Virus record (IMG/VR): IMGVR_UViG_3300037502_001507
Span: 1-23,720 of that record
Source of the DNA: a virus
Strand: one strand, 5' to 3'
Length of the DNA: 23,720 bases
A model generated the notes under the pieces. The model saw only the letters and a program-made list of their open reading frames with translations, did no database searches and was not told where the DNA came from. Position numbers and translations under genes: made by a program. Below, piece by piece: positions 1 through 16,569 of this stretch; the stretch's first letter is position 1; every line of letters starts with the position of its first letter.

Positions 1-124
1 TTTTAAACTTACCAGTGTCGGTTTCAAAGCCAATTTCACCAACTTCTAGGATTGGGCCATCGCCATCGTTGGTAGAAGTCCATTGAGCTGCAGTTCCTCT
101 GCGCTGTTGCATTCTTGTTGCCAT
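1..124 (-). CDS. Tail fibre, Mtd-like N-terminus (partial)
   Basis: Only the first 41 codons are in the window; the gene runs off the left edge. The start reads MATRMQQRRGTAAQW and continues to an ETDTGKFK segment, nearly the same as the N-termini of the genes at 3861-5579 and 5596-6933. This module resembles the N-terminal domain of the phage major tropism determinant (Mtd), which attaches a receptor-binding fibre to the virion. The ATG at 124 is preceded by a strong ribosome site AGGAGGT (133-139) and a TGATATAAT promoter box (154-162). The DNA of the three copies has diverged while the protein is conserved, so the triplication is old. The C-terminal receptor-binding part cannot be seen. 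Confidence 0.9.
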   Translation of the reverse strand, partial: MATRMQQRRGTAAQWTSTNDGDGPILEVGEIGFETDTGKFK

Positions 125-153
125 GTAAGGGGACCTCCTAATATACTGAGATT

Positions 154-162
154 ATTATATCA
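154..162 (-). promoter_or_regulatory. Late promoter -10 box (TGATATAAT)
   Basis: Extended -10 element on the minus strand upstream of the Mtd-like gene starting at 124. Transcription would begin near 147, leaving a leader of roughly 22 nt that carries the AGGAGGT ribosome site. It is one of a recurring set in this window; no clear -35 is seen. Confidence 0.6.
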
Positions 163-166
163 GATT

Positions 167-895
167 TTATCTATAAGATTTTCTATTCCAGTTTTCATCT
201 CTATACGAGTCTGGAAATTCTTTTTGAAAAAGCGTTGTATCTGGGTATTTCTGCACATAGTCATATGCATCATATATCTCATGGGTAAATTCATCTCTTT
301 TAAATGGTATAACCTGAACCATTGGTGTACCGCCTTGAATTGTGCCTTCAAAATCTGGGTCTGTAAGCGTAAAAGGAAAGTTAACAGCAAAATCAAAAGT
401 ATCTGTATCGACAATTGCTGGAAGTATTGAAAATTTTGCCTCTCTATGCATTGGCGGTAAAAATAAACATGAGTATCCTGGATCAGTTCTAATTATCCAT
501 GGATTTATAAACTTTGGTAAACCTGTCTTATGAATATTATTATGAGGATAATTCTGTACTTGTGACAAAGGATGAGTTTCAACTGGAGCCATCTTGCCCC
601 AACTAAAGGCCATTGCATAACCATTTTTAGTCTGAGTTCTAAAAACTTCTATATCATCTGGAACTTTTAAAATATACCCAATATTCATGGAATCAAAAAC
701 TGGAATACATTTTTTAATAGTTGCATTTGTTTCAAGAGACTCTAGCATTTTATTTGTTATAACAGAGCTTTTACTTTGTTTTGTGCTACCATCTAAATAA
801 GAAATAGCATCCTTATACCAATATGGTATATGTTTTGATGATGGCTCTGGAAGATGTGTTTGTATAAAGCCTGATTTATTAATGAATTGAATCAT
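167..895 (-). CDS. Conserved phage protein of unknown function
   Basis: 242-residue soluble protein with no signal peptide or membrane segment. It resembles a family of uncharacterised proteins found in tailed phages, including cyanophages, by the segments HIPYWYKD (about residues 22-29), KKCIPVFDSM, NPWIIRTDPGYSCLFLPP (about 131-148), ILPAIVDTDTFDFAVNFPF and GGTPMVQVIPFKR (near 190-205). The repeated proline/aromatic signature suggests a compact beta fold. It lies inside the tail-fibre block between an Mtd-like fibre and small accessory genes, so a virion or fibre-associated role is possible but unproven. The ATG at 895 has no good Shine-Dalgarno site; a TGATATAAT box at 914-922 would give a leader of only about 11 nt. 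The family match is from memory of motifs, not a search. Confidence 0.85.
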   Translation of the reverse strand: MIQFINKSGFIQTHLPEPSSKHIPYWYKDAISYLDGSTKQSKSSVITNKMLESLETNATIKKCIPVFDSMNIGYILKVPDDIEVFRTQTKNGYAMAFSWGKMAPVETHPLSQVQNYPHNNIHKTGLPKFINPWIIRTDPGYSCLFLPPMHREAKFSILPAIVDTDTFDFAVNFPFTLTDPDFEGTIQGGTPMVQVIPFKRDEFTHEIYDAYDYVQKYPDTTLFQKEFPDSYRDENWNRKSYR

Positions 896-913
896 ATTAA
901 ATAAATATTATTG

Positions 914-922
914 ATTATATCA
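914..922 (-). promoter_or_regulatory. Late promoter -10 box (TGATATAAT)
   Basis: Extended -10 element 18 nt upstream of the ATG at 895. It would give a very short leader with no recognisable ribosome site. Confidence 0.55.
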
Positions 923-941
923 AATAATTAAAATATAATTA

Positions 942-1223
942 TTAGATAGTTTCGTCATCTTCTACAGTAACAACGTCTTCTGGCATTATTGGAAAAGATT
1001 CAAACTGTCTTGGAGGGGCAGCAGTAAATCTTTGTGTTGCTGGATCATATGTTGAGTCTGCTGTTACAATGGCTACATCTTGATGATCTGTAACATCAAT
1101 TACAACTGGATCGCTCAAAAATATTGCAGCAAGTCTTTCATCTGTATATATAACATCTGCAACAACGTTATCCAATATAAAAGCAATTCTTACTGGCGAT
1201 TGCCCGTGATCATGCTCTGTCAT
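942..1223 (-). CDS. Small acidic tail-region protein
   Basis: 93 residues, acidic, no transmembrane segment. The middle contains STYDPATQRFTAAPP, a pattern like the short terminal segments of small phage tail-associated proteins. A virion accessory or fibre-assembly role is only an inference from position. The ATG directly follows the TAA stop of the upstream zinc-ribbon gene (TAAATG), and the ribosome site AGAGGAG lies inside that gene, so the two are translationally coupled. The C-terminus is a run of acidic residues (VEDDETI). Confidence 0.8.
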   Translation of the reverse strand: MTEHDHGQSPVRIAFILDNVVADVIYTDERLAAIFLSDPVVIDVTDHQDVAIVTADSTYDPATQRFTAAPPRQFESFPIMPEDVVTVEDDETI

Positions 1224-1472
1224 TTATTTAGTCTCCTCTTTGTAAGATATTTTTTCTTGATTCCATTTTCCTAATGGACAAGATGAGTTTGGAAGTTTTG
1301 TCTTTAGCTTCATTATACACCCACATTCTTTACATTGTGTAGTTTTTTTAATAAATCTTGGACATTCTTCACAAATTGCAAGTCTTTGTTTTGCAATAAC
1401 TGTTTCAACACGACCTATATTTTTATTAAATAGATCCCAAGGCCTTGCTGGTCTTTCGTTATTTTCTGTCAT
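1224..1472 (-). CDS. Phage zinc-ribbon protein, copy 1
   Basis: 82 residues. Signature: RPWDLFN near residue 13, then CEECPRF, CKECGCIMKLKTKL and CPLGKW, giving five or six cysteines arranged as a small zinc-binding ribbon. It looks related to DUF6171-type proteins, but that is tentative. A clear homologue lies on the opposite strand at 16769-16972. A longer frame opens at GTG 1484, but the sequence there (GTG GAG GAA) is itself the ribosome site: GGAGG at 1478-1482 sits 5 nt before ATG 1472, which fixes the start at 1472. It lies directly downstream of the 775-aa adhesin and upstream of the 93-aa protein. Function unknown; a metal-binding adaptor or regulator is possible. Confidence 0.85.
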   Translation of the reverse strand: MTENNERPARPWDLFNKNIGRVETVIAKQRLAICEECPRFIKKTTQCKECGCIMKLKTKLPNSSCPLGKWNQEKISYKEETK

Positions 1473-1491: not shown

Positions 1492-3819
1492 TTATGCCAC
1501 AGTTACAGCAATATTGTCAACATATGAACCTTGTGCGTGAGGAGAGCTTGCTTTGATAACTCCTACACGATTTCCTTTTGTAGGAGATGAAGGGGTAAAG
1601 CTACTGCTTACTACAGCAGACCCACCCTTTCCTGCAGCGCTATAACCTGTATAGCTAATTGTATTTCCAGATGTACTGATTGCTAATGAACGTGTAGGGT
1701 TTAAGCTTGAAGCATATGTGTTTGAATGCTGTACTCCGCTTTGATTTACAATCTTAATATCTGATGTGTAATTTGTTGTATAGTTTGTATTAGTTACGTT
1801 TGTAGCATTGATAGTACAGCTTCCACCTCTGCAGTCATATATATACCAATCATAATTACAGTTAGTATTTAAATTGTTCTGCTGAGTAGCACTAAGACCA
1901 CAAGTATTTCTTGTAGTGTAATGACCAAAATCTGTTCCTGCACAATATACATATATCATAATGCTGCTACATGACTGGCCACACGTATTAGCTGGTCTAG
2001 ATTCAAAGGCATAGGTTCCACCAAGAGCTCCACCAGTACAAGAAGTTGATGTTCCTGTGGTTGTAGTGCTTGTATAGCTAGGATATATACCCCACCAAGA
2101 GTTTGCATCTGTTACCCAAAAAGACAACCCTACTCCACCTTGGTCAGCGTACATGTCTGCCTGAGCATTTGTAATTGTAGATGATGACATTGGTACTGTT
2201 GCTATGGAATTATTTGTGTCACTAGAATATGCCATGCTAGAGTCAACAGAGAAGTTTCCTCTTTGTACTGCCCATGATGATATTCCATCTGAAGATGTTC
2301 CTAGTGCACCATTTCCTCTATTAAACGAGTCAGATAACGTAATTGTAGATGTTGTAGTTGAGTTAGATGCTGACGAATAAGCGCTAGTACCGTTTGCATT
2401 TATAGCAGCAACTGAATATGTATATGCTATATTTTGTGCTAATCCTGATACAGTAATTGGAGAGGATGCCCCAGTTCCTGTTAGGCTAGATGGGTTAGAT
2501 GCCACGATGTATGATGTTATTGCTTTTCCACCATTTGCATTAGCAGTAAATGGAACTGATGCTGAGAATACTCCGACTGCTGGAGTATTTACTGTTCCAA
2601 CTGTAGGTGCTTGTGGAACCGTAGTAGCTGTTACAGAAGAAGATGCATCTGATGAAAGAGATGTTCCGTTAGCATTTGTTGCTGTAATTGTAAATGTGTA
2701 TGATGTATTTGAAGATAATCCGCCAACTACAATAGGGCTAGATGATCCTGATCCTGTATGTCCAGCATTACTTGTTACAGTATATGATGTAATTGCTGAT
2801 CCACCATTAAAAGCTGGTGCATTAAATGCAACAGAAACAGCTCCGTTATTAAAAGCTCTATTTGTTCCAACGTCTGTTACTGATGTAATTGTTGGAGCAT
2901 CTGGTGTATCCTGAGATAAGCTAAAAGTTCTATCAACATAGTTACCGCCAGAGTCTGTGACTCTAACTACAGCGGTATAAGGAGTGAGGTTATTTACTGT
3001 AGCAGTTCCAGAAAATACACCAGTTGATGTGTTAAAGGTGATTCCTGAAGGAAGATTTGAAGAAACAATTGAGTATGTAACAGAAGATGAACCATCAGCA
3101 TCTGTTGCTGCAATAGACTGTGAGAATGACTGATTCTTTTTATATCTGTTTAGTGTAACTGGTGTTACCCAAACTGGGGCGTTACCCGCAGTTGTAGAGT
3201 TTGAAAGCTTGTTAACATTAGTTCTTGTAGGGGATGCTACTCCAGGATTTGAAAGCTCAATAGTATATGGAGCATACTCTGGTGGCATATTATCTGGACG
3301 AGTAACAATAAGTTCGGTTGAATTTGATCTTACAATGCTCTTTGCTGCTCTGGCAACATTATCTGTTCCCTTAAATGCAACTTCAATATCTGAGGCAAAG
3401 TTTTTACCAATAATAGTTGTTGTATTATTTTGATTTGGAAGATCTGCTGATGATGTTGATGTAATTAATGGAGCAGCTCCAAGATCACTAGTACTATCTG
3501 AAGAAAGGCTGTATACATTTTTAAATGCAAAAGATAGTGTGTCATTATTTCCAATTCCGTAAACAACAACAACGTTAAATTCTTTTGTAGCTGTAATTGT
3601 TGTAGATGCTGTTTCTGCGTTTACGCTACCAGCATTTGTTCCATCTGTTCCTATTAAATATACATCGTATGAAGTATCTCCAAGAGATGATGTTACTGTA
3701 TATGTGCCAGCTGGAAATGTCTTAGACAAAGGACTTCTTCTGTGTCCTGATGATCCTGTATTAATAACAAAATCGTTATTTGCTCCAGCGGAGCTGGCTG
3801 AAGATCTCTTTAGAACCAT
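1492..3819 (-). CDS. Large multidomain adhesin (TIG, Ig-like, 2x FnIII, LamG-like)
   Basis: 775 residues. Visible order: short N-terminal virion-binding part with a KTFPAGTYTVTSSLGD sheet region (1-110); an IPT/TIG-like domain (about 117-205); a cadherin-like putative Ig domain with DADGSSSVTYSI and LPSGITFNTSTGVFSG (about 214-305); two fibronectin type III domains (about 306-400 and 401-493), each with SAITSYTV or KAITSYIV followed by SYTFTITATNANGTS-like strands; then a C-terminal concanavalin/LamG-like domain beginning LSDSFNRGNGALGTSSDG (about 494-775). That last domain contains a 75-residue insert with eight cysteines (594, 613, 617, 626, 640, 654, 663, 668), rare for a phage protein folded in the host cytoplasm. 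The likely role is carbohydrate or cell-wall binding at the tail tip. The ATG has an AAGGATGG-type ribosome site and a weak TACAAT box at 3846-3851. Confidence 0.88.
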   Translation of the reverse strand: MVLKRSSASSAGANNDFVINTGSSGHRRSPLSKTFPAGTYTVTSSLGDTSYDVYLIGTDGTNAGSVNAETASTTITATKEFNVVVVYGIGNNDTLSFAFKNVYSLSSDSTSDLGAAPLITSTSSADLPNQNNTTTIIGKNFASDIEVAFKGTDNVARAAKSIVRSNSTELIVTRPDNMPPEYAPYTIELSNPGVASPTRTNVNKLSNSTTAGNAPVWVTPVTLNRYKKNQSFSQSIAATDADGSSSVTYSIVSSNLPSGITFNTSTGVFSGTATVNNLTPYTAVVRVTDSGGNYVDRTFSLSQDTPDAPTITSVTDVGTNRAFNNGAVSVAFNAPAFNGGSAITSYTVTSNAGHTGSGSSSPIVVGGLSSNTSYTFTITATNANGTSLSSDASSSVTATTVPQAPTVGTVNTPAVGVFSASVPFTANANGGKAITSYIVASNPSSLTGTGASSPITVSGLAQNIAYTYSVAAINANGTSAYSSASNSTTTSTITLSDSFNRGNGALGTSSDGISSWAVQRGNFSVDSSMAYSSDTNNSIATVPMSSSTITNAQADMYADQGGVGLSFWVTDANSWWGIYPSYTSTTTTGTSTSCTGGALGGTYAFESRPANTCGQSCSSIMIYVYCAGTDFGHYTTRNTCGLSATQQNNLNTNCNYDWYIYDCRGGSCTINATNVTNTNYTTNYTSDIKIVNQSGVQHSNTYASSLNPTRSLAISTSGNTISYTGYSAAGKGGSAVVSSSFTPSSPTKGNRVGVIKASSPHAQGSYVDNIAVTVA

Positions 3820-3860: not shown

Positions 3861-5579
3861 TTAAATTACTACCCATCCATAGCCAGATCCTGTATAGACT
3901 ATTGATAGAACATCATAATTAACGTCTATTTCTAGATTTTGAACAGTACCGTTGATTTTATTGCTATTAGAATCTAGTGTAATAACATTTGTAGCAGCAG
4001 ATCCAGTTACATCAAACACCTGGATTTCATCCCCGTCTGTTGGAGAAGCTGGTAGCGTCAAAGTCCTTGCTGCTGAGGTATTAACAAAATATCTGTTATT
4101 TGAAGTTAAAGTAATATTAGAAGATACAGAAGTTGTTGGAATTGGAACATATGGGAATGATATTGTTTCCCATGTTGCTGTTGTACCGTCCGTTGTTAGG
4201 TATTTTCCAGAGTTGCTGGTCTGTGATGGAAGAGCATCTACTGTAGCCCAAGAAACGACTGACCCATCTGTAGTTAGATACTTACCTGAATTTCCAGTTT
4301 GTGATGGATATTCTGCCTTTGTAGCTAAAGCATTAGTTATTGTTGTTGCATAGTTTGCATCATCTCCAAGGGCTGCAGCAAGTTCATTCAAAGTGTTTAG
4401 TGCTGCTGGTGCTGCATCAACAAGATTTGAAATTGCGGTATCTACATAAGATTCTGTTGCTGCTGTATGAGCTCCACCACCAATTGGAATAGTTGTGCTA
4501 TTTCCACTGTGGGACAAAATAACATTTCCAGAATGTAGACCTATTGTTGCTGCATCTAAGTACAGTGTTGATCCAGATAGGTATAAATCTTTAAATTTAT
4601 TTGTTGAAGATCCTAAATCATATACCCCGTCAGATGCTGGAACTAAATCTCCACCAACTGTTGCACCATTAATAGTTGGAGATGTTAAAGTTTTATTTGT
4701 AAGTGTTTGTGTTCCATCATTGGTTGTTACGGTAGAATCAATATCAATTGTTATGGTATTTGCATTGTCATCATAAGTCTTATCTAGTCCAGTACCCGCC
4801 ACAAGCGCAGTATTAACAGCATCTTGTGCTGCCTCATCTAGATCTGCAGATGCAAGCTTATTGTCTAACTGTGTCTGAATATCTGATGTAACATTTGCAA
4901 GATATCCGATTTCTGTGCTTGAAACACCTGTTACAACATCTTGTTTAGATGATAGGTCAATCACTGCCCATGATGCAATTGAGCCATCTGTAGTTAAATA
5001 TTTTCCAGCTTGGCTGGTTTGGGACGGTAGCGCATCAATTGTTACAGACCCACCTAATGAAACAGCAGATCCATTAATAGTAATACTAGAATTTGTAAGA
5101 GAAGCATTTGCAATATCAGATAATGTATTTGAAGATCCTGATATTGTTTTATTTGTTAAAGTATCTGTGCTAGACGCAGATATTTTTCCACTTATAGATG
5201 TTGTTATTGTAGATGCAAAATTTGCATCATCATTTAGAGCTGCAGCTAATTCATTAAGAGTGTCAAGTGCTCCAGGAGCTGCATCAATAATGTTTCCTAG
5301 CTGAGAAACTGGAACATTTCCAGATCCATCAAGAGTTGCAACTCCGTTGGCTTGGCCAAGGGTAGATGAGAGAACATAGTCTCCAGTTATGCTAGTTACA
5401 CCATCTTCATCAATAAAATATGGAAGATCTACCCAGTGATTATTACCATCACCTATCTTAAATTTTCCAGTATCTGTTTCAAAACCAAGTTCTCCAGCTT
5501 GTAAGACAGGACCATCTCCGTTATCTGTGGAGACCCATTGAGCAGCTGTACCTCTGCGTTGCTGCATTCTTGTTGCCAT
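3861..5579 (-). CDS. Tail fibre with Mtd-like N-terminus and receptor-binding C-terminus
   Basis: 572 residues. The N-terminal Mtd-like module (1-55) reads MATRMQQRRGTAAQW to GDGNNHWVDLPYF. The shaft is built of repeats: LDTLNELAAALNDDANF (about 105-121) and its copy at 395-410; TQTLTNKTLTSPTING (about 290-305); and three copies of a PSQT..SGKYLTTDGS..SWA unit (near 183, 424 and 450). The C-terminal domain (about 485-572) contains NRYFVNTSAARTLTLPASP and TNVITLDSNSNKINGT, a beta-rich tip domain found in many phage fibres. Ribosome site GAGGAG precedes ATG 5579, 16 nt after the stop of the upstream paralogue. It is the complete member of the three-copy family and presumably forms trimers. Confidence 0.92.
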   Translation of the reverse strand: MATRMQQRRGTAAQWVSTDNGDGPVLQAGELGFETDTGKFKIGDGNNHWVDLPYFIDEDGVTSITGDYVLSSTLGQANGVATLDGSGNVPVSQLGNIIDAAPGALDTLNELAAALNDDANFASTITTSISGKISASSTDTLTNKTISGSSNTLSDIANASLTNSSITINGSAVSLGGSVTIDALPSQTSQAGKYLTTDGSIASWAVIDLSSKQDVVTGVSSTEIGYLANVTSDIQTQLDNKLASADLDEAAQDAVNTALVAGTGLDKTYDDNANTITIDIDSTVTTNDGTQTLTNKTLTSPTINGATVGGDLVPASDGVYDLGSSTNKFKDLYLSGSTLYLDAATIGLHSGNVILSHSGNSTTIPIGGGAHTAATESYVDTAISNLVDAAPAALNTLNELAAALGDDANYATTITNALATKAEYPSQTGNSGKYLTTDGSVVSWATVDALPSQTSNSGKYLTTDGTTATWETISFPYVPIPTTSVSSNITLTSNNRYFVNTSAARTLTLPASPTDGDEIQVFDVTGSAATNVITLDSNSNKINGTVQNLEIDVNYDVLSIVYTGSGYGWVVI

Positions 5580-5595: not shown

Positions 5596-6933
5596 CTACA
5601 AAGCACCCATAATAACCATAATTTCATCTGGTCCTGCTTGAATGGTAACGCTACCGCCAAGAGATACTGATGAACCATTGATAGTTACTGATGAATTCGT
5701 CAATTTATTATTTGCAATTGATCCTGCAAGCATATCATTTGTTACTGTGTTATTTGGTAAAGTTACTGTTCCAGTGAATGTTGGTGAGACTAGTGGTGCT
5801 TTTGCATCAAGCTGTGTCTGAATTGCTGATGTTACACCATTTAAATATCCGAACTCTGTGTTTGAAACATCTCCGACTGTGATTGATGATGCAGTAAGAC
5901 CAGCAACAGCTAAATCATCAAGCGATCCTTGGGTAAAATCTACTGTAGTAGTAGGCTCTGTTGTTACATCTTTGAAAAGCTTCCATGTGCTAGCTGAAGT
6001 ATCTTTTACTAAACCTGCATGTTTTGCTGTACCGTCGTTGTATCCAACCACAACACCTAAATCAACTGTATTTGCTGGGTTCTGATGTGCAAGCTGAACC
6101 ATGTTATCTTCAATAACGATGCTTGTTGCGCTTGCTGCAAAGTTTGTTCCGTTTACAGTGAAGTCTCCGTCTACAATAAGATCATCTGTTGTAACAGTTC
6201 CTGTAAATGTTGGAGAAGCAAGGTTAGATTTAAGATCTAGGGCCGTTTGTGTAGCAGTAGAAACTGGCTTATTGGCATCTGAAGTATTATCTACGTTTCC
6301 AAGACCAACCATTGATGCTGTAATTCCAGATACTGTTCCTGTAAAAGTTGGCGAAGCTGTTGGAGCTTTTGCATCAAGCTGTGTCTGAATAGCAGAGGTA
6401 ACACCATCTACATAATTTAATTCTGTGGCGGTAGCAGTAATATCTGATATATTTCCTACCTGTACAGTAATTGTATTATCAGCATAAGAAATTGTTTTGT
6501 TTGTTAATGTCTGAGACCCAGAGTTTGTAGTAACTGTTGAATCTATATCTAAAGTTATTGTGTTAGCGTTATCATCATAGGTTTTATCTAAACCTATACC
6601 CGCCACAAGTGCGGTATTTATTGCTTCCTGAGAAATTTCATCAATATTTGGTATCTGTGAAGAAGTTAGCTTGCCTGAGCCATCAAGGGTAGCTACACCG
6701 TTATTTTGTCCAAGAGTAGAAGATAATACATAATCTCCTGTAATAGAGTCTATATCTGACTCATCTAAAAAATAATCAAGGTCAACCCAGTGATTATTTC
6801 CATCTCCAATTTTAAATTTACCTGTATCAGTTTCAAAACCGATTTCACCAGCATTGAGAATTGGACCGTCGCCGTTATGTGTAGAAATCCATTGAGCAGC
6901 CGTACCTCTGCGCTGTTGCATTCTTGTGGCCAC
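5596..6933 (-). CDS. Tail fibre paralogue with Mtd-like N-terminus, GTG start
   Basis: 445 residues. Residues 1-100 align almost throughout with the 572-aa fibre downstream (MATRMQQRRGTAAQW, SITGDYVLSSTLGQ.NGVATLDGSG). The shaft carries three SPTFTGTV repeats (about 194, 240, 383) and two TSAIQTQLDAKAP units (about 179 and 369), plus a segment IVIEDNMVQLAHQNPANTVD (about 272-291) common in phage fibres. Unlike its neighbour it ends abruptly at EIMVIMGAL without the C-terminal tip domain, so it may be a spacer fibre or a partner of another fibre. The start is GTG at 6933: AGGAGGG (6942-6948) lies 8 nt upstream and the GTG aligns with the ATG of both paralogues. A TATAAT box lies at 6960-6965. 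Confidence 0.92.
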   Translation of the reverse strand: MATRMQQRRGTAAQWISTHNGDGPILNAGEIGFETDTGKFKIGDGNNHWVDLDYFLDESDIDSITGDYVLSSTLGQNNGVATLDGSGKLTSSQIPNIDEISQEAINTALVAGIGLDKTYDDNANTITLDIDSTVTTNSGSQTLTNKTISYADNTITVQVGNISDITATATELNYVDGVTSAIQTQLDAKAPTASPTFTGTVSGITASMVGLGNVDNTSDANKPVSTATQTALDLKSNLASPTFTGTVTTDDLIVDGDFTVNGTNFAASATSIVIEDNMVQLAHQNPANTVDLGVVVGYNDGTAKHAGLVKDTSASTWKLFKDVTTEPTTTVDFTQGSLDDLAVAGLTASSITVGDVSNTEFGYLNGVTSAIQTQLDAKAPLVSPTFTGTVTLPNNTVTNDMLAGSIANNKLTNSSVTINGSSVSLGGSVTIQAGPDEIMVIMGAL

Positions 6934-6969: not shown

Positions 6970-7428
6970 TTAATTAAAATTATCTATTGCAATTCCACCA
7001 TCCCAGGTATTTTCCCAAGATGTTGTATTGTATAGTCCTGCACTTACCATTGTTCCTGGATCATTATAAAATCCTCCAGATACAAATGTTGTAACTACCG
7101 TTCCAGTTCCACCAATTGAAGTATCGTGAATGTGATCTTGAAGTGTCTCTGCATCCTCAAGAGTTGCCATTGCATACCAAGAACCTGCATAATAAACATG
7201 AAGTCTTTCTGTTACTGTGTCATACCATAAATTTCCATTAGATGGATTAGCGGGTGGAGTATCTGATACTGGAACTTCTACTCCACCAACTATAGAATCT
7301 ACATATGCTTTAGTAGCAGCATGTGAATTTTCTGTAGGAGTGGCAACAGTGACAGTTCCTCCAAAGGTACCGCCATTTGTTACGACAAGGCCATTTTTTA
7401 CCTTAAAGTCTTTATCAACTGTTGCCAT
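6970..7428 (-). CDS. Short tail-fibre protein, KDFKVKNGL family
   Basis: 152 residues. The N-terminus MATVDKDFKVKNGLVV is shared with the 729-aa fibre immediately upstream (7446-9635), followed by HAATKAYVDSIVGG, a fibre-shaft element also present in that protein. The middle NPSNGNLWYDTVTERLHVYY is a motif often seen in phage tail proteins, where it forms a beta-hairpin unit. The C-terminal part (about 95-152) is glycine- and threonine-rich. GGAG lies 6 nt before ATG 7428, and the gene begins 17 nt after the stop of its paralogue. Probably a second fibre using the same attachment module with a short tip. Confidence 0.88.
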   Translation of the reverse strand: MATVDKDFKVKNGLVVTNGGTFGGTVTVATPTENSHAATKAYVDSIVGGVEVPVSDTPPANPSNGNLWYDTVTERLHVYYAGSWYAMATLEDAETLQDHIHDTSIGGTGTVVTTFVSGGFYNDPGTMVSAGLYNTTSWENTWDGGIAIDNFN

Positions 7429-7445: not shown

Positions 7446-9635
7446 TTAAGCTATTAATGTTCCAACCACGGTAACGTCTGTTGAATTATTAACAGTTGTT
7501 ACACGAAGTCTTACATTTGATGCATCAAGATCAGCTGAAACATTTACAAGATTTCCGTTTGTTCCAACAACTGCATATTCTGTAATAGCAATATTATTTG
7601 ATCCATCAAGAGTTACTAAAACCTCTGACACTTCAGTATGCGCTGCAGTCTCAGCCTTAACCAAGAACTTAGCAGAGCGATAATCTGCGTGTGCAAACTG
7701 GTAAGCTGTTACTGTGCTTGCTGTTGGTACAGAAGTTGTAGCAGCAACCTGTGTTGCAACGCTGTTAATATCAATTTCAGTAAAGTTTGGAACAACTGCT
7801 TCAAGGGCAGATACTGCACGAGCATTTGTGAAGTATAGGTTTGTTGATCCCTCTGCAAGTTGATCTGTGTTAGAATCTGCAACACCATTTTCAGCTGTAA
7901 TGCTTAGGGTGTGTGCATTTTCATCATATGTAATCTGAATATTGGTAAGTGATGCATTTTCAAGAATATATCCTGCTGCATCTTTTGCACGATTTTCTGT
8001 AAAGTATTTATTTGTTGTACCTTCAGAAACATCATCTGTGTCTATAGAAGCATTAATATAATCATCTACACGCTGATCTGTATAATATAGATTTGTACCT
8101 TCAGCAATGTCTGATGTAGTTAAATTATCTATTGTTGTATTAACACCATTAATGGCACCATCTACATAGTTCTTAGTAGCAGCATCTTGTGCTGATGTCG
8201 GCTCTTCAAGATTTTCAATTGTATATGTGTTTGCCGCATCAATATTTGCACTAAGTAATGTTCCAGAGCCAAGGGTCTTATTTGTAAGAGTCTGTGTATC
8301 TGAAGTTCCAACTACAGTTCCAGTAACGCCATGAACGCTTGATGTTAAATCAATGTGTGCATCTAGCTCTGTATCAACATAAGTTCTTGTAGCCGTAACT
8401 GTTTCATCAATTTCAAATGTATTGCCGTCAAGTGTTAATCCATTTCCAGCAAGATATGTTCCAGCACCAGAGAACTGGCTGAAATAAATTGGATCTGTTC
8501 CAATTGTAGTTACCCCAGTTGCTGTCTGAACCCAGCCAGTGTTATCGTTGCTGTTACCTCCAGTTACGAAGATAAAGTCACCGCCATCCACTTCTGCTGG
8601 TGCATCAAAGTCTGCTGCACGAAGAGCAGACCCTGATGGCTGAACTTCGTAAATACCGTTTTCTGCAGCATTTGTCTGGTTCTTTACAAGAACACGATTT
8701 CCAGATGCTAATGTAACTCCATCAATTGTATCGCCAACCATTAGGTCATTAGCAATGCTGATATTTGTTGTAGTAGCAGCTACTGCTGATGGATGAACAT
8801 GTAAACCTTCAGAAACTGAATCAACATATGCCTTGGTTGCTGCATCTGTTGAGCTAGATGGATCACTAAGATTTGTGATTCTATATGTTCCTGCATCAAG
8901 ATTTGATCCAAGTGTTTTATTAGATATAGTCTGTGTATCCGTTGTACCTACAACGTCTCCAGTAACTCCGTGTATTCCAGATGAAGCGTTGTGTGTGCTA
9001 ATTGCATTTGTAAGGTCTGTTTCTGTAGCAACAATAGTATCATCTATCTGAATTGCTCCGCCAACAGAAAATTCAAGCCCATTACCAAGATGTGCAGAAA
9101 ATTCTCCAGTGTTGCTGTCGTAGTTTAAGCCATCTCCATTAGAAACAGCATCACGAACACGAGCATCTGTATAGTACTTATTTGTTGCACCTTCTGAAAC
9201 ATCGTCAGTGTCAATAGAGTTATTGATATAATCATCTACTCTTTGGTCTGTATAATATTTGTTTGTTGTGCCTTCTGAAAGATCATCTGTATCTAAATTT
9301 GTTTGTACATGTGTTGTAACACGTGCATCTGTATAATACAGGTTTGTTCCTTCTGATAAATCTCCAGTATCATGATTTGAAAGATCAGAAACTGTACCAG
9401 TTACATCACCAGTTAGATCTGCTGTAATTGTTCCAGCAGCAAAATTGCCTGAGCCATCACGCTTTACAACTGTATCTGGTGTATTGTTTGGTGTTGCAGT
9501 TCCGCCAATAAGACCAACAATGTAGTCTTGGTCGTCCTGCTTTTTTGTAAGAATGTCATAGTTGTTGATGGTACCTGTTGTGCCTTCAACAATCAGACCA
9601 TTTTTTACCTTAAAGTCTTTTGCGACTGTTGCCAT
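7446..9635 (-). CDS. Long tail fibre, SEGTxxYYTDxRV repeats
   Basis: 729 residues. An attachment module MATVAKDFKVKNGLIV (1-16) is followed by six SEGT..YYTD.RV-type repeats (about 92-106, 119-133, 145-160, 510-523, 536-550, 593-607), a repeat typical of phage and phage-like fibre shafts. Two TQT.(S/T)NKTLGS units (about 233 and 447) each lead into a DAATK.YVD element. Between them (about 275-390) is a domain with ASGNRVLVKNQTNAAENGIY and a GWVQTATG segment known from many tail proteins. The last 90 residues (about 640-729) form a domain shared with the next gene upstream, 9654-10100. AAGGAG lies upstream of ATG 9635. Likely the main long fibre of the virion. Confidence 0.92.
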   Translation of the reverse strand: MATVAKDFKVKNGLIVEGTTGTINNYDILTKKQDDQDYIVGLIGGTATPNNTPDTVVKRDGSGNFAAGTITADLTGDVTGTVSDLSNHDTGDLSEGTNLYYTDARVTTHVQTNLDTDDLSEGTTNKYYTDQRVDDYINNSIDTDDVSEGATNKYYTDARVRDAVSNGDGLNYDSNTGEFSAHLGNGLEFSVGGAIQIDDTIVATETDLTNAISTHNASSGIHGVTGDVVGTTDTQTISNKTLGSNLDAGTYRITNLSDPSSSTDAATKAYVDSVSEGLHVHPSAVAATTTNISIANDLMVGDTIDGVTLASGNRVLVKNQTNAAENGIYEVQPSGSALRAADFDAPAEVDGGDFIFVTGGNSNDNTGWVQTATGVTTIGTDPIYFSQFSGAGTYLAGNGLTLDGNTFEIDETVTATRTYVDTELDAHIDLTSSVHGVTGTVVGTSDTQTLTNKTLGSGTLLSANIDAANTYTIENLEEPTSAQDAATKNYVDGAINGVNTTIDNLTTSDIAEGTNLYYTDQRVDDYINASIDTDDVSEGTTNKYFTENRAKDAAGYILENASLTNIQITYDENAHTLSITAENGVADSNTDQLAEGSTNLYFTNARAVSALEAVVPNFTEIDINSVATQVAATTSVPTASTVTAYQFAHADYRSAKFLVKAETAAHTEVSEVLVTLDGSNNIAITEYAVVGTNGNLVNVSADLDASNVRLRVTTVNNSTDVTVVGTLIA

Positions 9636-9653: not shown

Positions 9654-10100
9654 TTAAGCCTTGAGTCCAATACGTGCAAAACGTACTGTGATAGGCGTAA
9701 TACCCACTGCTGGAGTTACAGTTAAGTTTACTGTAGACCCCACCTTAGAGACGCTAATGGTGCCAATATTCCCATCATTGTCTATTGTGCCATACTCAGA
9801 AACATTTACATTTGTTCCATCAACGAGTATGCTCAATTCTGTTGCATAGTATTTATTATCTCCACTTGATGTCTTAGCAATAGAAACTAAATATTTTACA
9901 AGTCTCCATGTTGTTGCATCAAAGTTGTCTATTACCGTTGCATTTTCAATGCCATAAATTGTATTTTCATTATTGCCGAACGTACCAAGGTCTGTTGATT
10001 GTGCTGCAACGGTATCAATTAAATCTTCATAATCTTCCTGAGTAGGACGATCACCAGTTTGAAATTTGGTTTTTACGAGAGGTAGTGTAGTTCTGGCCAT
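9654..10100 (-). CDS. Small fibre-type protein sharing a C-terminal domain with the long fibre
   Basis: 148 residues. The first 50 include FQTGDRPTQEDYEDLIDTV, a helical segment. The remainder (about 58-148), with LVKYLVSIAK, YYATELSILVDGTNVNVSEY and a VNLTVTP strand, matches the C-terminal 90 residues of the 729-aa fibre (SAKFLVKAE, HTEVSEVLVTLDGSNNIAITEY). This is a beta-sandwich seen at the ends of several phage tail proteins. The protein therefore looks like a stand-alone tip or collar domain on a helical anchor. The ATG lies 6 nt after a TGTTATAAT box with no ribosome site, so the gene probably has a leaderless transcript. Confidence 0.87.
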   Translation of the reverse strand: MARTTLPLVKTKFQTGDRPTQEDYEDLIDTVAAQSTDLGTFGNNENTIYGIENATVIDNFDATTWRLVKYLVSIAKTSSGDNKYYATELSILVDGTNVNVSEYGTIDNDGNIGTISVSKVGSTVNLTVTPAVGITPITVRFARIGLKA

Positions 10101-10889: not shown

Positions 10890-11441
10890 TTGACAAACAA
10901 TAAAATGCTGGTAGGGGTAATTAGTGGTACGTTTCTGTTAGTGTCTATTTTGGGCGCTATACCGTCACATGCTGCTAAAAATAATTTATCTAAACAGGAA
11001 GCGTCTAGCCTTGCCACCCTCGAGGTGGCTTTTGTGCTATCTGAGGATAAAAATGAAAAAATACTTACTAAGTATGAAAATGCGACAAGTTTGACTGACA
11101 GCCAGTTGGTTGAATTACTTAAGGCGGTAGGGTTCAAAGGAAAAGCTTTAAAGACTGCTTGGGCGGTAGCTAAAGCTGAATCCAATGGTCGTCCATTTGC
11201 TTTTAATGGAAACACCAATACTGGAGACTCCTCATTTGGAATCTTTCAGATTAACATGCTAGGTACTTTAGGTCCAGATCGCAGAGATAAATACGATCTT
11301 GATTTTAATGCCTATTTGTTTAACCCAGTTATGAATGCTCAAATTGTATACCGCATGACAAAAGGCGGTATTGATTGGAGTTCCTGGTCATCTTACAACA
11401 AAGGTGCTCATTATAAATGGTTAAACAAATTTCCTGAGTAA
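10890..11441 (+). CDS. Secreted lysozyme-like cell-wall hydrolase (endolysin candidate)
   Basis: 183 residues. The N-terminus has a hydrophobic segment (about 8-23) ending in IPSHAAKNN, a signal peptide likely cut after SHA. Residues about 80-183 form a lysozyme/lytic-transglycosylase-like domain: AWAVAKAESNG carries the probable catalytic glutamate, followed by DSSFGIFQINML, NPVMNAQIVYRM and DWSSWSSYNKGAHY, all hallmarks of this fold. It should cleave peptidoglycan for lysis or DNA entry. The start is TTG at 10890, fixed by AGGAGG (10877-10882) 7 nt upstream; the next ATG would shorten the basic N-region. It is a self-contained unit on the opposite strand with its own promoter, 5' hairpin and terminator. 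A signal sequence implies Sec export, with the holin-like gene at 15581 as possible partner. Confidence 0.88.
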   Translation: MTNNKMLVGVISGTFLLVSILGAIPSHAAKNNLSKQEASSLATLEVAFVLSEDKNEKILTKYENATSLTDSQLVELLKAVGFKGKALKTAWAVAKAESNGRPFAFNGNTNTGDSSFGIFQINMLGTLGPDRRDKYDLDFNAYLFNPVMNAQIVYRMTKGGIDWSSWSSYNKGAHYKWLNKFPE

Positions 11442-11458: not shown

Positions 11459-11478
11459 CCCCCTCTTTTTTGAGGGGG
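11459..11478. terminator. Bidirectional terminator between convergent genes
   Basis: CCCCCTC (11459-11465), a six-T loop, GAGGGGG (11472-11478), flanked by A-rich sequence on the left and a T-run on the right, so it works in both directions. It separates the lysozyme gene (+) from the small gene ending at 11495 (-). Confidence 0.9.
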
Positions 11479-11494
11479 TTATTTTTTTATATAA

Positions 11495-11680
11495 TTATTC
11501 TGTTATTATATTTGATGGATTTATCCAGGTACCGTTTTCTCTTTTCCATCCAATCCAAGGTTCTGAATCAGTTGATTCGATAATTTCATATATTGGGTAA
11601 ACCAATTCTGCAGATTCTTTGCTGTCTGCCACAATTACATTTATTACTTCATCATTTCTTATAATTAAATAGTTTTTCAT
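11495..11680 (-). CDS. Small fibre-linked protein
   Basis: 61 residues with a compact pattern: MKNYLIIRNDEVINVIVADS, then an acidic stretch, then EPWIGWKRENGTWI. Similar short proteins often follow tail-fibre genes in phages; a fibre chaperone or attachment role is possible but not shown. Ribosome site AAAGGT precedes the ATG. It is the last gene of the minus-strand run and ends at the bidirectional terminator. Confidence 0.8.
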   Translation of the reverse strand: MKNYLIIRNDEVINVIVADSKESAELVYPIYEIIESTDSEPWIGWKRENGTWINPSNIITE

Positions 11681-11689: not shown

Positions 11690-12817
11690 TTAGTAGTGTA
11701 TCCAAATTGCTCCACCGCCACCATTCGCACCATTCATGTTAGCGTTATAACCTCCACCTGCTCCTCCGCCGCCTCCACCTACGGTTACTGCATTAGTAGG
11801 ATTTGTACGACCCGAGTTTCCAGTTCCACTTCCACCATTTCCTCCTGATCCTCCCTGTATTGTTATTCCAAATACTGAAGTAGCAACCGAACTTCCACCT
11901 GCTCCTCCACCATTTGCTCCAGATGATCCACCACCACCGCCACCACCTGCAGTTCCTGCTCCTCCAGCACCACCTGAGCCGTTTGATGCAAGACCTCCTG
12001 AAACTCCAGCTGAATCACTTATAAATCCAGCGCCTGCGCCACCACCTCCGCCAGCATTGCTATTAGCATTATTAGTTCCTCCAGTTCCACCATTGTTATT
12101 AGTTTGTAGAGTGTATCCTCCATTATTACCTGATGTTGTTGAATGAAGCATCTGTACAAACCCACTAGATCCACCTCCTCCTGGGGAATTATTTCCAGTG
12201 GTTCCTCCGCCTCCGCCTCCTCCTGCATTTCCATAAATAAATGCAGAATTCCATTGCAAAGAGCTATTTGTTGAGCCAGGTTGTCCAGCACCGCCTCCAT
12301 TACCTGACCATGCACCATTACCGCCACCTCTACCACCTAATACTGTGCCTATTCCAGTTATAGATGTATTTCCTCCATTATTTCCAACTCCCGTGCTTCC
12401 AGTTCCACCAGCTCCAATTACTGCTGTATAAGTTCCTGGTGGAATGTTTTGATATATCGCTAATTGACCAGCACCGCCACCTCCGCCTCCAGATCCGTAG
12501 TTTGCTTGTTGATTAGCACCGCCTCCACCGCCAGCTCCTCCTCCGCCAATCATAATGATTGTATTTAACGCTGCAGTAGATGGTATGGTAAAAGTTGTTG
12601 ATGATGTTATTGTTTGTCTTAAAGTTTGTGAGGATCCAGTATTTCCCCATCCTGCTGAATTACCAGCAGATGTAATTGCTGCCACTGTAGTTGCTGCAGG
12701 TGCAGCGTTTGTTGTAATAGCAGAAGTTATTTGTGCAATTGTTGGAACCGATCCTGCTACAGATGTTGCAATATCGCTATTCTGTGGGCCAACCCCTGGA
12801 ATTCTGTCTATAGCCAT
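11690..12817 (-). CDS. Polyglycine-rich tail-fibre adhesin
   Basis: 375 residues. Residues 1-55 (MAIDRIPGVGPQNSDIATSV, then alanine-rich helix) form an attachment module shared with the 215-aa protein at 13060-13707. A strand-rich linker (about 60-90, QTLRQTITSSTTFTIPS) leads into some 280 residues dominated by GGGG and GGA runs broken by short segments such as GTYTAVIGAGG and FGITIQGGSGG, ending GGGGAIWIHY. This fits glycine-rich phage adhesins, where packed polyglycine-II helices present variable loops at the fibre tip. AGGAG precedes ATG 12817. The composition makes the opposite strand look open, but that is a shadow. Confidence 0.9.
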   Translation of the reverse strand: MAIDRIPGVGPQNSDIATSVAGSVPTIAQITSAITTNAAPAATTVAAITSAGNSAGWGNTGSSQTLRQTITSSTTFTIPSTAALNTIIMIGGGGAGGGGGANQQANYGSGGGGGGAGQLAIYQNIPPGTYTAVIGAGGTGSTGVGNNGGNTSITGIGTVLGGRGGGNGAWSGNGGGAGQPGSTNSSLQWNSAFIYGNAGGGGGGGTTGNNSPGGGGSSGFVQMLHSTTSGNNGGYTLQTNNNGGTGGTNNANSNAGGGGGAGAGFISDSAGVSGGLASNGSGGAGGAGTAGGGGGGGSSGANGGGAGGSSVATSVFGITIQGGSGGNGGSGTGNSGRTNPTNAVTVGGGGGGAGGGYNANMNGANGGGGAIWIHY

Positions 12818-12826: not shown

Positions 12827-13060
12827 CTATAACTTCTTTATTACTTCTATTAATTCTGGGGTAATACCTAGTTCAGAAAGTTTTTCATGTACCGCCGCTT
12901 TTGCAGTATCAATTTCTGACTGCTTTGACAAACGTTCTGATTCTTCTGATTCAAATGCAGCTTTATCTGATAGATATTGAGTATACTCGTAATCATTCAT
13001 TTCACGCATAGTTTCTTCTTTTGTATTTACATCTACAATCTTTATAAGTGGATTAGACAT
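12827..13060 (-). CDS. Small charged helical protein between two fibre genes
   Basis: 77 residues. MREMNDYEYTQYLSDKAAFE (about 18-37) begins a charged helix likely to form a coiled coil up to about residue 60, ending LGITPELIEVIKKL. This resembles short tail-fibre chaperones or accessory proteins of phages. The ATG overlaps the stop of the 215-aa fibre gene by one base, and AGGAG lies inside that gene, so synthesis is coupled to the fibre. Confidence 0.82.
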   Translation of the reverse strand: MSNPLIKIVDVNTKEETMREMNDYEYTQYLSDKAAFESEESERLSKQSEIDTAKAAVHEKLSELGITPELIEVIKKL

Positions 13061-13707
13061 TAGTTAGCTCCTAACACAGTTATATTTCCAGCAGAACCAA
13101 AATTTGAGCCCGAACAGAATATTTGCGCTGAACTTATTGAACTTGATGAACTATAATTCCCAAATCCAGTAACCCTATATCTATTGCTAAAAAAGTTGGT
13201 ATCGCCTGTCCATTCAACCAGTTTTGCTGTGCTACTGCTGCTTGCATTTTGAATGCTGAGATCAAAACTTGCAGGAAAACCTGCCGAAATATACATAAGA
13301 GTAAATGAACTTGCGTTTACTTCTTTAGCATAATCAGCATTAGTCCCAACTAAGCCATTCATTCTGTAAGTATATACACCTGATGAATCATTATTAAATC
13401 TCAAATTAAAATTGTGGTTGCCACCATTTTCCAGAATTTCAGTGCAAAGAAATCTAAGATATTTATATCCGTTAAGCCCTGTAATGCTAAGTTGGGTTGC
13501 ATTTGTGGGAAATGAATAACTTCCCAAGTTTGTCCAAGTTCCACCGAATGGTGAGCCAGCATTCGCCTGTACTGTGCTTGTAATCTGAGCAAGAGTTGGT
13601 ACAGATGCAGCAACTTGAGTTGCGATTGTTGCTGCACTTGGTGCTGCAACGGCAGCTGCTATATCACTGTTCTGGGGTCCTACGCCAGGAATTCTATCGA
13701 TAGCCAT
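13060..13707 (-). CDS. Tail-fibre protein, MAIDRIPGVGPQNSDIA family
   Basis: 215 residues. Residues 1-50 are the same attachment module as in the polyglycine adhesin, with a longer alanine-rich helix (AAAVAAPSAATIATQVAASV). Residues about 55-215 are beta-rich (TWTNLGSYSF, LRFLCTEIL, YRVTGFGNYSSSSS) and end VLGAN. Two paralogous fibres thus pair one module with either a glycine-rich or a compact tip. The ribosome region is 17 nt identical (GGAGGTAGTAACTAATG) to that of the gene just upstream, 13728-14030. Confidence 0.88.
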   Translation of the reverse strand: MAIDRIPGVGPQNSDIAAAVAAPSAATIATQVAASVPTLAQITSTVQANAGSPFGGTWTNLGSYSFPTNATQLSITGLNGYKYLRFLCTEILENGGNHNFNLRFNNDSSGVYTYRMNGLVGTNADYAKEVNASSFTLMYISAGFPASFDLSIQNASSSSTAKLVEWTGDTNFFSNRYRVTGFGNYSSSSSISSAQIFCSGSNFGSAGNITVLGAN

Positions 13708-13727: not shown

Positions 13728-14030
13728 CTATGCTATTTCTACGCCAGAAATGTGAAAATTAACAGTTGTTGCTGAAGCTAGACCAGTTATTGTATTTGTT
13801 GCAGCAAGAACCTGCTTAAGATCGATAGCTGTTATGCTATTTGCTGCTAAGCTAACTCCTGAAGCAACTGCCACTCCGTTTAGGCTGAGTGTAAATGTTG
13901 CTGTTGAAGCTGCTGTATTTGTTACGATAACGTTTGTTATAACTGTAGTCGTAGCTGAAGGGACTGTATAAAGAGTAGTGCTTGATGTTGAAGCGGCACC
14001 ACGAAAAAGCGCTTTTGATGTTGTAGCCAT
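13728..14030 (-). CDS. Small beta-sandwich virion-associated protein
   Basis: 100 residues rich in T, S, A and V with alternating strands: TTLYTVPSATTTVITNVIVT, ATFTLSLNGVAVASG, NFHISGVEIA. No signal or membrane segment. It looks like a common small phage protein thought to decorate the tail or head; the specific role is unknown. AGGAGGT sits 7 nt before the ATG and a TATAAT box at 14052-14057 gives a short leader. Confidence 0.85.
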   Translation of the reverse strand: MATTSKALFRGAASTSSTTLYTVPSATTTVITNVIVTNTAASTATFTLSLNGVAVASGVSLAANSITAIDLKQVLAATNTITGLASATTVNFHISGVEIA

Positions 14031-14057: not shown

Positions 14058-14064
14058 CATTATT

Positions 14065-14787
14065 TTAAGAAACTGCTATATGAATAGACTTTAAAATTAC
14101 AGAAGAATCATTGTCTGTTCTGATCTGTGGTATACCGCCTGAAGTCTGAAACTTCTTGTCCTCAATAAAAAGGGTATGCTGAACAGACATCTCATATTCA
14201 TATTGATATTTTAATACCCCAATATAGCTGGTAGGATAATTATCAGAGTTTTCAACATAGGTTCTTATCCATGCCTCTGTGTTATTAGAAAATGTAGATA
14301 TTTCTAGATTATAACAAATTGTTACAATTGAACCTATATTAAGAGTTTTAAAATTAATTCTATTTGTATTAGAATTCCATAATGATACTGACTCTCTTGG
14401 TAAATATTTTTCTGTAGTATTTTTACCTTTACCGTCGACAAATAGGCTTACCCAACCATCTTCTCCCTTTGTCGCACCAGCTCTAAATGTTTTTAAATTC
14501 TCTGCAGAATAAAGAGCCCATCCTATATTTTGCATTGACGGAGATAAAATATTTATTCCGTCTTTTCCATCCCTGCCGTCTCTACCAGGCTCGCCCTTAT
14601 CGCCCTTTAAACCCTGTTCTCCCTGCGGACCAGCATCTCCCTTTGGTCCTTTAGGTCCTTGCTCTCCTTGAGGGCCAGGTACAGCAATAAACATTTGAGG
14701 ATCAACAATTATAGAGTTGTCGGATGGTAAATTATCAGAGTATTTTTTCTTTTTAGAAGATGAAGGGAAATCCATACTTGTTGCCAT
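14065..14787 (-). CDS. Collagen-like tail-fibre protein
   Basis: About 240 residues. After a lysine/serine N-terminal stretch (KKKKYSDNLPSDNS) comes an unbroken block of 13 Gly-X-Y triplets, from GPQGEQGPKG to GRDGRDGKDG, a short collagen triple helix that trimerises fibres. The rest (about 160 residues) is a beta-rich tip with FRAGATKGEDGWVSLFVDG and IGSIVTICYNLEIS. The start is uncertain: GTG 14796 directly follows the stop of the 28-codon gene and would add three residues, whereas ATG 14787 gives the MATS opening common among neighbours. Neither has a strong ribosome site, and coupling to the upstream gene is likely. Confidence 0.88.
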   Translation of the reverse strand: MATSMDFPSSSKKKKYSDNLPSDNSIIVDPQMFIAVPGPQGEQGPKGPKGDAGPQGEQGLKGDKGEPGRDGRDGKDGINILSPSMQNIGWALYSAENLKTFRAGATKGEDGWVSLFVDGKGKNTTEKYLPRESVSLWNSNTNRINFKTLNIGSIVTICYNLEISTFSNNTEAWIRTYVENSDNYPTSYIGVLKYQYEYEMSVQHTLFIEDKKFQTSGGIPQIRTDNDSSVILKSIHIAVS

Positions 14788-14796
14788 ATGGATCAC

Positions 14797-15278: not shown

Positions 15279-15284
15279 ACTGCG

Positions 15285-15373: not shown

Positions 15374-15404
15374 TTTGTTTATTATAAAAACGGACAAAAG
15401 GTAT

Positions 15405-15493
15405 AAAAACTTTCAAACCAGACAGTATTTACTAATTGTTATAAAAGAGTTATAAAGAAAAAACAGTATAAGTTGAAAAACTTTCAAACCAGA
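15405..15493. repeat. Two direct 18-bp repeats in an AT-rich gap
   Basis: AAAAACTTTCAAACCAGA occurs at 15405-15422 and exactly again at 15476-15493, 71 bp apart. The 302-bp gap 15279-15580 has no gene: it holds these repeats, the GC-rich hairpin, two promoter boxes and, at 15500-15580, almost pure A/T including an alternating TA tract. A near copy of the AAAACGGACA motif lies at 15387-15396. The repeats may bind a regulator. Confidence 0.6.
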
Positions 15494-15580
15494 GTGTATA
15501 ATTGAAATATATAAAGAAAAAGAATATTAAGTAAATAAGTTTTTAAAATATTTAATATATATTATATATAGTAATAAAGA

Positions 15581-15808
15581 TTATTTTTTAGAATGATCTT
15601 CTAGATGGTTTATCATCATGTCAAATACTTTATCCATTTTATCTTCTAGACGTGTTATTTGATCTTTCATAGAAGATCCACTATTTGGCTTTAATTCTGA
15701 TAGAATATCTTCAACGTATTTTTTCACGATCCATCTCCCTGCGATTCCGACAGCACCAATAATGGAGATAACTGTTAAAATGAATCCTGCCCAATCTTGT
15801 GCTGACAT
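15581..15808 (-). CDS. Holin-like small membrane protein
   Basis: 75 residues. Residues about 8-26 (FILTVISIIGAVGIAG) are one membrane helix. The tail is charged and predicted coiled coil (LKPNSGSSMKDQITRLEDKMDKVF), ending in a basic KK. This matches small one-helix holin-like proteins of actinobacteriophages with an SELKPN.GSS.KDQ motif. It would permeabilise or depolarise the membrane during lysis with the hydrolase at 10890, 4.1 kb away. The ATG is 7 nt after a TGATATAAT box without a ribosome site, so it is leaderless. An AT-rich tail after the stop may serve as terminator. Confidence 0.8.
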   Translation of the reverse strand: MSAQDWAGFILTVISIIGAVGIAGRWIVKKYVEDILSELKPNSGSSMKDQITRLEDKMDKVFDMMINHLEDHSKK

Positions 15809-15815
15809 AAGACAA

Positions 15816-15824
15816 ATTATATCA
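15816..15824 (-). promoter_or_regulatory. Leaderless late promoter (TGATATAAT)
   Basis: TATAAT (15816-15821), upstream TG, 7 nt before the holin-like ATG at 15808. It allows lysis-gene expression independent of the upstream fibre gene. Confidence 0.65.
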
Positions 15825-15838
15825 TTATTTGAAACAAA

Positions 15839-16282
15839 TTATTCACAGATGTACGAGAAAGACATGTGAAATTTATCTTCTGGATTTGGAGAAAATGGAG
15901 TGTTGTAATCCATTGGCTCATCGTTTCCAGATCCCGCATGTTGCCACAAAGTCATAGTTGTGCTGGAAGGAATTAAATGTCCTTTTAAGCTATAGTGTCT
16001 TAAAGTTGGAAGAGTATCGTGTGCAGATCCACCATAAACATCTGTATGGTATTTAGATGCAAAAGGCAAAGTCAAAGAATACTGACCAGTCCCAAAATTT
16101 GTAACGTTTGTATACAAAACGTCAATTTGAACAATAACAAGATTTCCAATTTTAATATAAGATCCAGTTGCTGGGTTATTGGTAAAAGCAAGTCCAGTTC
16201 CAGACCATACTGGGCTATAAGTATTTATCGTAGTTGTAAGTCCGCCAGCATCACCAAAAGCGGGATGTGTAAACCGTGCCAT
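15839..16282 (-). CDS. Short tail-fibre tip protein
   Basis: 147 residues. TYSPVWSGTGLAFTNNPATG (about 21-40) followed by YIKIGNLVIVQIDVLYTNVT and FGTGQYSLTLPF is a beta-rich domain often found as the C-terminal tip of longer phage fibres; here it stands nearly alone behind a short N-terminus (MARFTHPAFGDAGG). The ATG overlaps the stop of the upstream gene by one base, so translation is coupled. It probably binds another tail protein rather than forming a long shaft. Confidence 0.85.
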   Translation of the reverse strand: MARFTHPAFGDAGGLTTTINTYSPVWSGTGLAFTNNPATGSYIKIGNLVIVQIDVLYTNVTNFGTGQYSLTLPFASKYHTDVYGGSAHDTLPTLRHYSLKGHLIPSSTTMTLWQHAGSGNDEPMDYNTPFSPNPEDKFHMSFSYICE

Positions 16283-16569
16283 TACTTATTCTGGCTTTCC
16301 AAGCTAGTGCTAATTACTGCAGCTTTCATTCCGTTAGCGGATGCAATCGCAAATAAAGCATCCTTTGGAGGAAGTTCGAATGATATTGAATGATTAGGCA
16401 TAATTCTAAAACCGTAATTGGTAGAGCTTAGGGTTTCAGTTCCGCCGAGATATATGTAACCCGTGTCATTCACATTTTGAATTGTAAAGTCCATTCCAGA
16501 ATGTGTTCCAAGCGGGGTCAGGCGGGTAACAGAAGTATTGCTCAGTGTATGTAATATATGTGCAGTCAT
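16282..16569 (-). CDS. Small beta-rich virion-associated protein
   Basis: 95 residues. TRLTPLGTHSGMDFTIQNVN (about 15-34), GYIYLGG and FRIMPNHSISFELPPKDALF mark a small beta-barrel-like protein that looks common in tailed phages. Its role is not known; the tail-fibre operon context suggests a virion part. The start is leaderless: ATG 16569 lies 6 nt after TGTTATAAT (16576-16584). It is the first gene of the leftward late series. Confidence 0.83.
   Translation of the reverse strand: MTAHILHTLSNTSVTRLTPLGTHSGMDFTIQNVNDTGYIYLGGTETLSSTNYGFRIMPNHSISFELPPKDALFAIASANGMKAAVISTSLESQNK

Follow-up and report, generated by a model that had tools for sequence, protein, structure and literature searches.

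A probable constant framework with exchangeable tips in a fibre gene block of an uncultured tailed phage

Why should one phage carry a long row of fibre genes, several of which begin with the same N-terminal module? This question is raised by positions 1 to 16569 of IMGVR_UViG_3300037502_001507, an uncultured virus record whose 23,720-base fragment was analysed at its full length and is called the window here. A preceding sequence-only reading had counted at least nine fibre-type genes in about 12 kb and three repeated attachment modules, on which different tips would be mixed and matched. The count is borne out by nine complete genes and a truncated one, all on the minus strand from position 16569 down to 1. 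Their summed open reading frames amount to 11.1 kb of coding sequence. The three modules are real and occur as had been described. Comparison with relatives suggests, with a probability of roughly 0.7, that the block encodes a multi-fibre receptor-binding array consisting of a constant framework and exchangeable tips.

The MATRMQQ module (MATRMQQRRGTAAQW) starts the genes of M445 and M572 and a third gene, of which the contig end leaves 41 codons. Where the copies can be aligned they share 83% identity, and a DNA repeat analysis detected 139-nucleotide repeats at these gene starts with 71-79% identity, which is far beyond chance. The MAIDRIPG module (MAIDRIPGVGPQNSD) starts two genes (fibres a and b), as does KDFKVKNGL; the long and the short protein of the latter pair are dissimilar beyond the first ~16 residues. 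Two of the tips that had been assigned to repeated modules do not belong to them. The collagen-like protein has an N-terminus of its own that is none of the three modules, and the supposed LamG-like protein, an Ig/fn3 protein, has its own N-terminus as well. LamG was rejected for this gene, for which Pfam gives He_PIG and fn3 and no LamG match.

About 250 related loci and contigs were gathered by four viral scans. Their gene maps display a single conserved order: A95, MARF, p75, p131, the collagen-like fibre, and variable zone A, followed by the opposite-strand lysozyme, p137, p75b, an optional zone B, the gp9-like gene, long KDFKVKNGL (KDF), short KDF, and the Mtd_N gene, which is the one starting with the MATRMQQ module. 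At loci that were not chosen by Mtd_N, the long KDF gene precedes 56 of 59 short KDF genes, and the gene after short KDF is Mtd_N in 49 of the 50 complete cases. C-termini were compared by global identities in pairs with an N-terminal identity of at least 60%; single-linkage clustering was dropped as too permissive. Values below 25% identity over the C-terminal 100 residues were taken as noise (null 19 +/- 3.6%). The fraction of pairs at noise is 0% for the gp9-like protein, the collagen-like fibre, P100, p137 and short KDF, and 2% for long KDF. It is 32% for Mtd_N and likewise 32% for MAIDRIPG. The Mtd_N set of this comparison was partly chosen by its N-terminus; at the bias-free loci, i.e. 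those following short KDF, the same contrast was obtained (N50 identity 74% versus C100 identity 38%).

The idea of variable tips on fixed modules consequently has to be divided: it is supported for Mtd_N and MAIDRIPG and not for KDFKVKNGL. The comparison across related phages identified Mtd_N, MAIDRIPG and MARF as exchangeable positions, at which the N-terminus is kept and the tip can no longer be aligned, next to a fixed backbone that includes KDFKVKNGL. The KDFKVKNGL pair appears as two matches in most whole records. Because its C-termini are conserved and the order of long and short gene is kept, the apparent duplicate is, judged by these alignments, an old constant pair, and a shuffled module was rejected. 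The structure predicted for the short protein had a predicted local distance difference test (pLDDT) score of 61 and was not interpreted. In one relative (G002:4286-4406, L024) the N-terminus of the long protein is split over two frames, the first 20 residues being matched to 95% in another frame; this is either a sequencing error or a real frameshift.

The exchange is also visible in a comparison of the window with the relative G001. At p131, p137 and the gp9-like gene the two agree to 98-99%, but no identity above background is left in the MARF gene, in the tip part of MAIDRIPG, or in the polyglycine gene and the small gene behind it. The MARF genes share 45.9% DNA identity between flanks of 59% and 98%. 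In the MAIDRIPG gene, the first 41 codons, which encode the anchor, are 88.6% identical, the tip is at background, and the next small gene reaches 77.8%. These two near-identical phages differ precisely at the MAIDRIPG tip. Five further close contigs lack the MAIDRIPG cassette altogether; there, window positions 11466-11488 abut 14060-14063. The gene after A95-like genes is MARF in 7/7 cases.

The MATRMQQ module corresponds to Pfam Mtd_N (46 bits in both complete genes, cut-off 26.3), and among solved structures its sequence is closest to the N-termini of phage hyaluronidases. Seven tip classes occur on Mtd_N genes whose N-termini are 56-90% identical. Exactly one Mtd_N match above the cut-off was found in 27 of 32 related records; G002 contains three, G001 two, and the window three copies, including the truncated one. 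A tandem duplication of the cassette is indicated because the same order recurs in the window and G002: Mtd_N, the MVLKRS-type He_PIG/fn3 gene, two small genes, the accessory gene, and again Mtd_N. A short peptide, QAGPDEIMV(I/L)MGAL, forms the common end of M445 and its relatives, which have no globular tip. As this end is conserved in two relatives, the short form does not result from truncation and might represent a proximal segment. Purifying selection acts on every copy compared, with ratios of nonsynonymous to synonymous substitution rates (dN/dS) of 0.02-0.48. Tip diversification by a diversity-generating retroelement (DGR) was rejected, as no reverse transcriptase (PF00078) was matched in the window, which is a fragment, or in 12 related records.

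The MAIDRIPG genes belong to a cassette of P100, fibre and small gene that is present in unrelated phage backbones. P100 lies directly before MAIDRIPG in 13 of 28 cases, in several phage backbones and partly next to tail-fibre genes; otherwise it is mostly followed by other fibre-like N-termini or another P100. Since the genes after P100 are mostly fibre-like, P100 is a candidate adaptor. Compact tips ending in G(A/G)N occur in the window, L001, L002 and L008, and in all four cases one family of small genes (77-81 residues) follows, whereas MAIDRIPG genes with polyglycine tips have other small-gene families downstream. The window and L001 share one backbone; L002 and L008 share another, unrelated one, where a gene for an SU10-type adaptor and one for a tail fibre precede the cassette. 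Two more small-gene families were found in more than one backbone. These data are suggestive of the GAN tip and its small gene travelling together. The polyglycine gene had no sequence match to solved structures, and the small genes are unlike known chaperone families. Another phage contig (L016:7541-11338) contains three consecutive MAIDRIPG-type fibre genes, each with its own small gene.

For the conserved 148-residue protein, an AlphaFold2 model with a pLDDT of 81 was obtained. In fold, its residues 40-148 correspond to the C-terminal domain of T4 gp9 (1qex; VIA Z 13.9, root-mean-square deviation 2.1, 105 residues, 23% identity). A sequence search of the PDB with this family yielded nothing convincing. 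The matched part comprises only chain residues 171-284 of 288; a full gp9 was rejected, as the coiled coil and the middle domain of gp9 are unmatched. Domains related to the gp9 C-terminal domain also end tailspikes, so the fold alone is no proof of a connector role. It supports a tail location of the fibres without proving it.

Which phage carries this block? No close cultured relative of the window record was found, nor did a search of phage records with the 137-residue protein retrieve a cultured relative. No tail sheath (PF04984) was found in the related records of 93-117 kb (0 of 10), and a contractile, T4-like phage as suggested by the gp9 fold was rejected on this ground. Among the eight related records that reach 93 kb or more, seven have a WhiB-like gene, an actinophage marker (PMC10202952), which is not present in the window itself. 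The GP88 protein of the window is closest to Mycobacterium and Streptomyces phages, and a 72-residue piece of the M572 shaft shares 60.8% identity with Planktophila phage LanE43-AprF5. Given these three observations, a freshwater actinobacterial host is likely, and the source would be an uncultured, sheath-less tailed phage of roughly 100 kb. A host search with the window lysozyme in genome contigs gave no match. The block is truncated at the left end of the window; in G002 it extends to the ribonucleotide reductase gene and head genes. In G017 (107.7 kb), after the fibre block come ribonucleotide reductase, head genes, a 2859-residue gene that is probably the tape measure, judged by its length, and minor tail genes.

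A plausible mechanism can be outlined. The framework would probably consist of the gp9-like protein, the long and short KDFKVKNGL fibres and the collagen-like fibre. Mtd_N, MAIDRIPG and MARF fibres would be held by their short constant N-terminal ends, which by analogy to known families may dock on the virion, probably via the small adaptors P100 and A95. Recombination inside the gene, just behind the anchor, would swap the tips, and a MAIDRIPG tip would be exchanged along with its own small downstream gene, which probably encodes a folding chaperone or tip cap. Tandem duplication of the cassette would have lifted the number of Mtd_N genes from one to two or three in the lineage of the window. 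Several receptor specificities in one phage are the likely outcome. Intact frames and purifying selection are consistent with several different fibres on one virion. Going considerably further, and only tentatively, one may picture a siphovirus-like particle that displays at least five fibre types at once with their own adaptors (A95, P100, gp9-like), and adaptor-fibre-chaperone cassettes that pass from one phage to an unrelated one as prefabricated units for receptor binding.

Several observations weigh against a receptor-binding array. The fibre block lies upstream of the ribonucleotide reductase and head genes, away from the tail-tip genes, and one PHROG match of the long KDFKVKNGL protein is phrog_2647, 'head decoration'. 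Collagen-like proteins are often capsid decorations, and the M572 shaft matches a solved chain annotated as 'tail collar fibers' (9d93). Most fibres of the block might accordingly be head or collar fibres that keep particles near cells or surfaces, and not tail-borne receptor-binding proteins. We regard this as unlikely: the M572 shaft motif is generic, the PHROG matches are mostly tail fibres, the backbone contains a gp9-type connector fold, and the P100-MAIDRIPG cassette adjoins a tail-fibre gene in other phages. Further adverse points are that the window is a fragment whose third Mtd_N gene is cut, and that some differences between tip classes may stem from old divergence and not from recombination. 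Moreover, the link between GAN tip and small gene comprises four cases in two lineages; it would have a chance probability of ~3e-4 if the cases were independent, and because they are not, it stays suggestive.

Tandem paralogs with common anchors could also mean that a single exchangeable fibre is used at a time, by alternative expression or from a stored archive of tips. This is doubtful, as neither a reverse transcriptase nor, in the window, an invertase arrangement was found, and all genes have intact frames, point in one direction and are under purifying selection. Chimeric assembly or decay of duplicates might be suspected behind the additional Mtd_N copies, since the contig is fragmentary and its third copy ends at the border. 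Either is very improbable, as the same duplicated types, again with conserved ends, occur in the independent contigs G001 and G002, the latter running on to head genes without a break, and dN/dS is 0.11-0.27. A multi-fibre array with exchangeable tips remains the preferred interpretation.

The features of the block are compiled in the table. Relatives keep the SLT_3 lysozyme gene at the same place, where it runs against the direction of the fibre genes. In zone B, which separates p75b from the gp9-like gene, some relatives contain a pair of glycosyltransferases (Anp1-like and GT25 family; L198:9560-10979, L023:2832-4257, L180:2043-3471); the pair is not present in the window and possibly modifies fibres. 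Genes for 2-oxoglutarate-Fe(II) oxygenases lie near fibre blocks (L104:6512-7114, 16580-17284 and 20844-21548; L198:3232-3966), and their combination with GT25 and collagen-like fibres leads to the speculative idea of a hydroxylated or glycosylated phage collagen. DUF6065, represented in the fibre cassette of the window, has up to five paralogs in G017 (33349-33918, 41222-41848, 68277-68693, 79392-79799, 96719-96973). G017 also contains a tryptophan halogenase gene (69502-71058, L258:9502-11058; PF04820, E 3e-99). Outside the block, the window encodes a HesB/IscA-type Fe-S cluster assembly protein (17225-17575, PF01521).

Table. Genes of the fibre block in the window, listed from right to left.
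Feature	Position	Strand	Family or remark
A95, small conserved protein just upstream of exchangeable MARF gene, possible adaptor	16282..16569	-	
MARF gene, 147 aa, exchangeable	15839..16282	-	relatives: collagen-like, 184-214 aa or 666 aa
p75, conserved small protein, 75 aa	15581..15808	-	weak PHROG matches: holin-like or minor tail
p131, conserved protein, 131 aa	14883..15278	-	phrog_1084
Collagen-like fibre, SMDFPSS N-terminus, conserved over its full length in relatives	14065..14796	-	PF01391
P100, 100 aa, probable adaptor of exchangeable fibre	13728..14030	-	
MAIDRIPG fibre a, constant anchor (~41 aa) and compact tip ending LGAN	13060..13707	-	
Coiled small gene, 77 aa, accompanies GAN-type tip; probable tip chaperone	12827..13060	-	
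MAIDRIPG fibre b, anchor as in fibre a, polyglycine tip	11690..12817	-	PF21722, phrog_863
Small gene, 61 aa, behind polyglycine tip; probable tip accessory protein	11495..11680	-	
Secreted lysozyme/transglycosylase SLT_3, borders variable zone A	10890..11441	+	PF18896
p137, conserved protein, 137 aa	10351..10764	-	phrog_1084
p75b, conserved protein, 75 aa	10124..10351	-	
Conserved 148-aa protein, gp9-like fold at residues 40-148	9654..10100	-	AlphaFold2 model
Long KDFKVKNGL fibre, 729 aa, constant in family	7446..9635	-	
Short KDFKVKNGL protein, 152 aa, constant	6970..7428	-	
Mtd_N fibre M445, ends ...QAGPDEIMVIMGAL, no globular tip	5596..6933	-	PF18454
Mtd_N fibre M572, beta tip ...GYGWVVI related to solved tailspikes	3861..5579	-	PF18454
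He_PIG/fn3 protein, 775 aa, own N-terminus MVLKRS, within tandemly duplicated cassette	1492..3819	-	
Two small cassette genes, 86 and 93 aa	942..1484	-	same order in G002
DUF6065-like accessory gene of cassette	167..895	-	
Third Mtd_N gene, cut by contig end	1..124	-	

Freshwater actinobacteria are extremely abundant, yet the receptor-binding proteins of their phages are hardly described. The microdiversity of these bacteria has been attributed to phage predation (PMC10202952). The division into constant and exchangeable parts points to the genes to be tested for host range, and the portable cassette illustrates a way in which unrelated phages may acquire one another's receptor specificity.

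Several known systems resemble the block in part. Streptococcal phage hyaluronidases and Mtd of BPP-1 likewise have an Mtd_N module (PF18454) at the fibre start; in contrast to these, no hyaluronidase domain, C-type lectin or DGR was found here. The C-terminal beta-sandwich fold of gp9, the long-tail-fibre connector of T4, is common to the 148-residue protein, but gp9 has three domains, whereas this protein is too short, has another N-terminus and originates from sheath-less phages. In T4-like phages with gp38 or a chaperone (PMC6957217; V22 chaperone, PMC7289586), tip and downstream accessory gene are reported to form a unit and the tip to be polyglycine-rich, as here; our polyglycine gene differs in having no match to a solved structure, and our small genes are unlike known chaperone families. 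The branched complexes of Ackermannviridae, with up to four tailspikes, contractile tails and Gram-negative hosts (PMC11414711, PMC8432352), are reported to be similar in that each phage has more than one receptor-binding protein and constant N-terminal parts are combined with swapped receptor-binding modules. The block differs in its about ten fibre genes, sheath-less actinophage relatives and other anchors. It follows a known phage strategy and is not a new kind of system, but it is a richer example than usual, in a poorly known group of phages.

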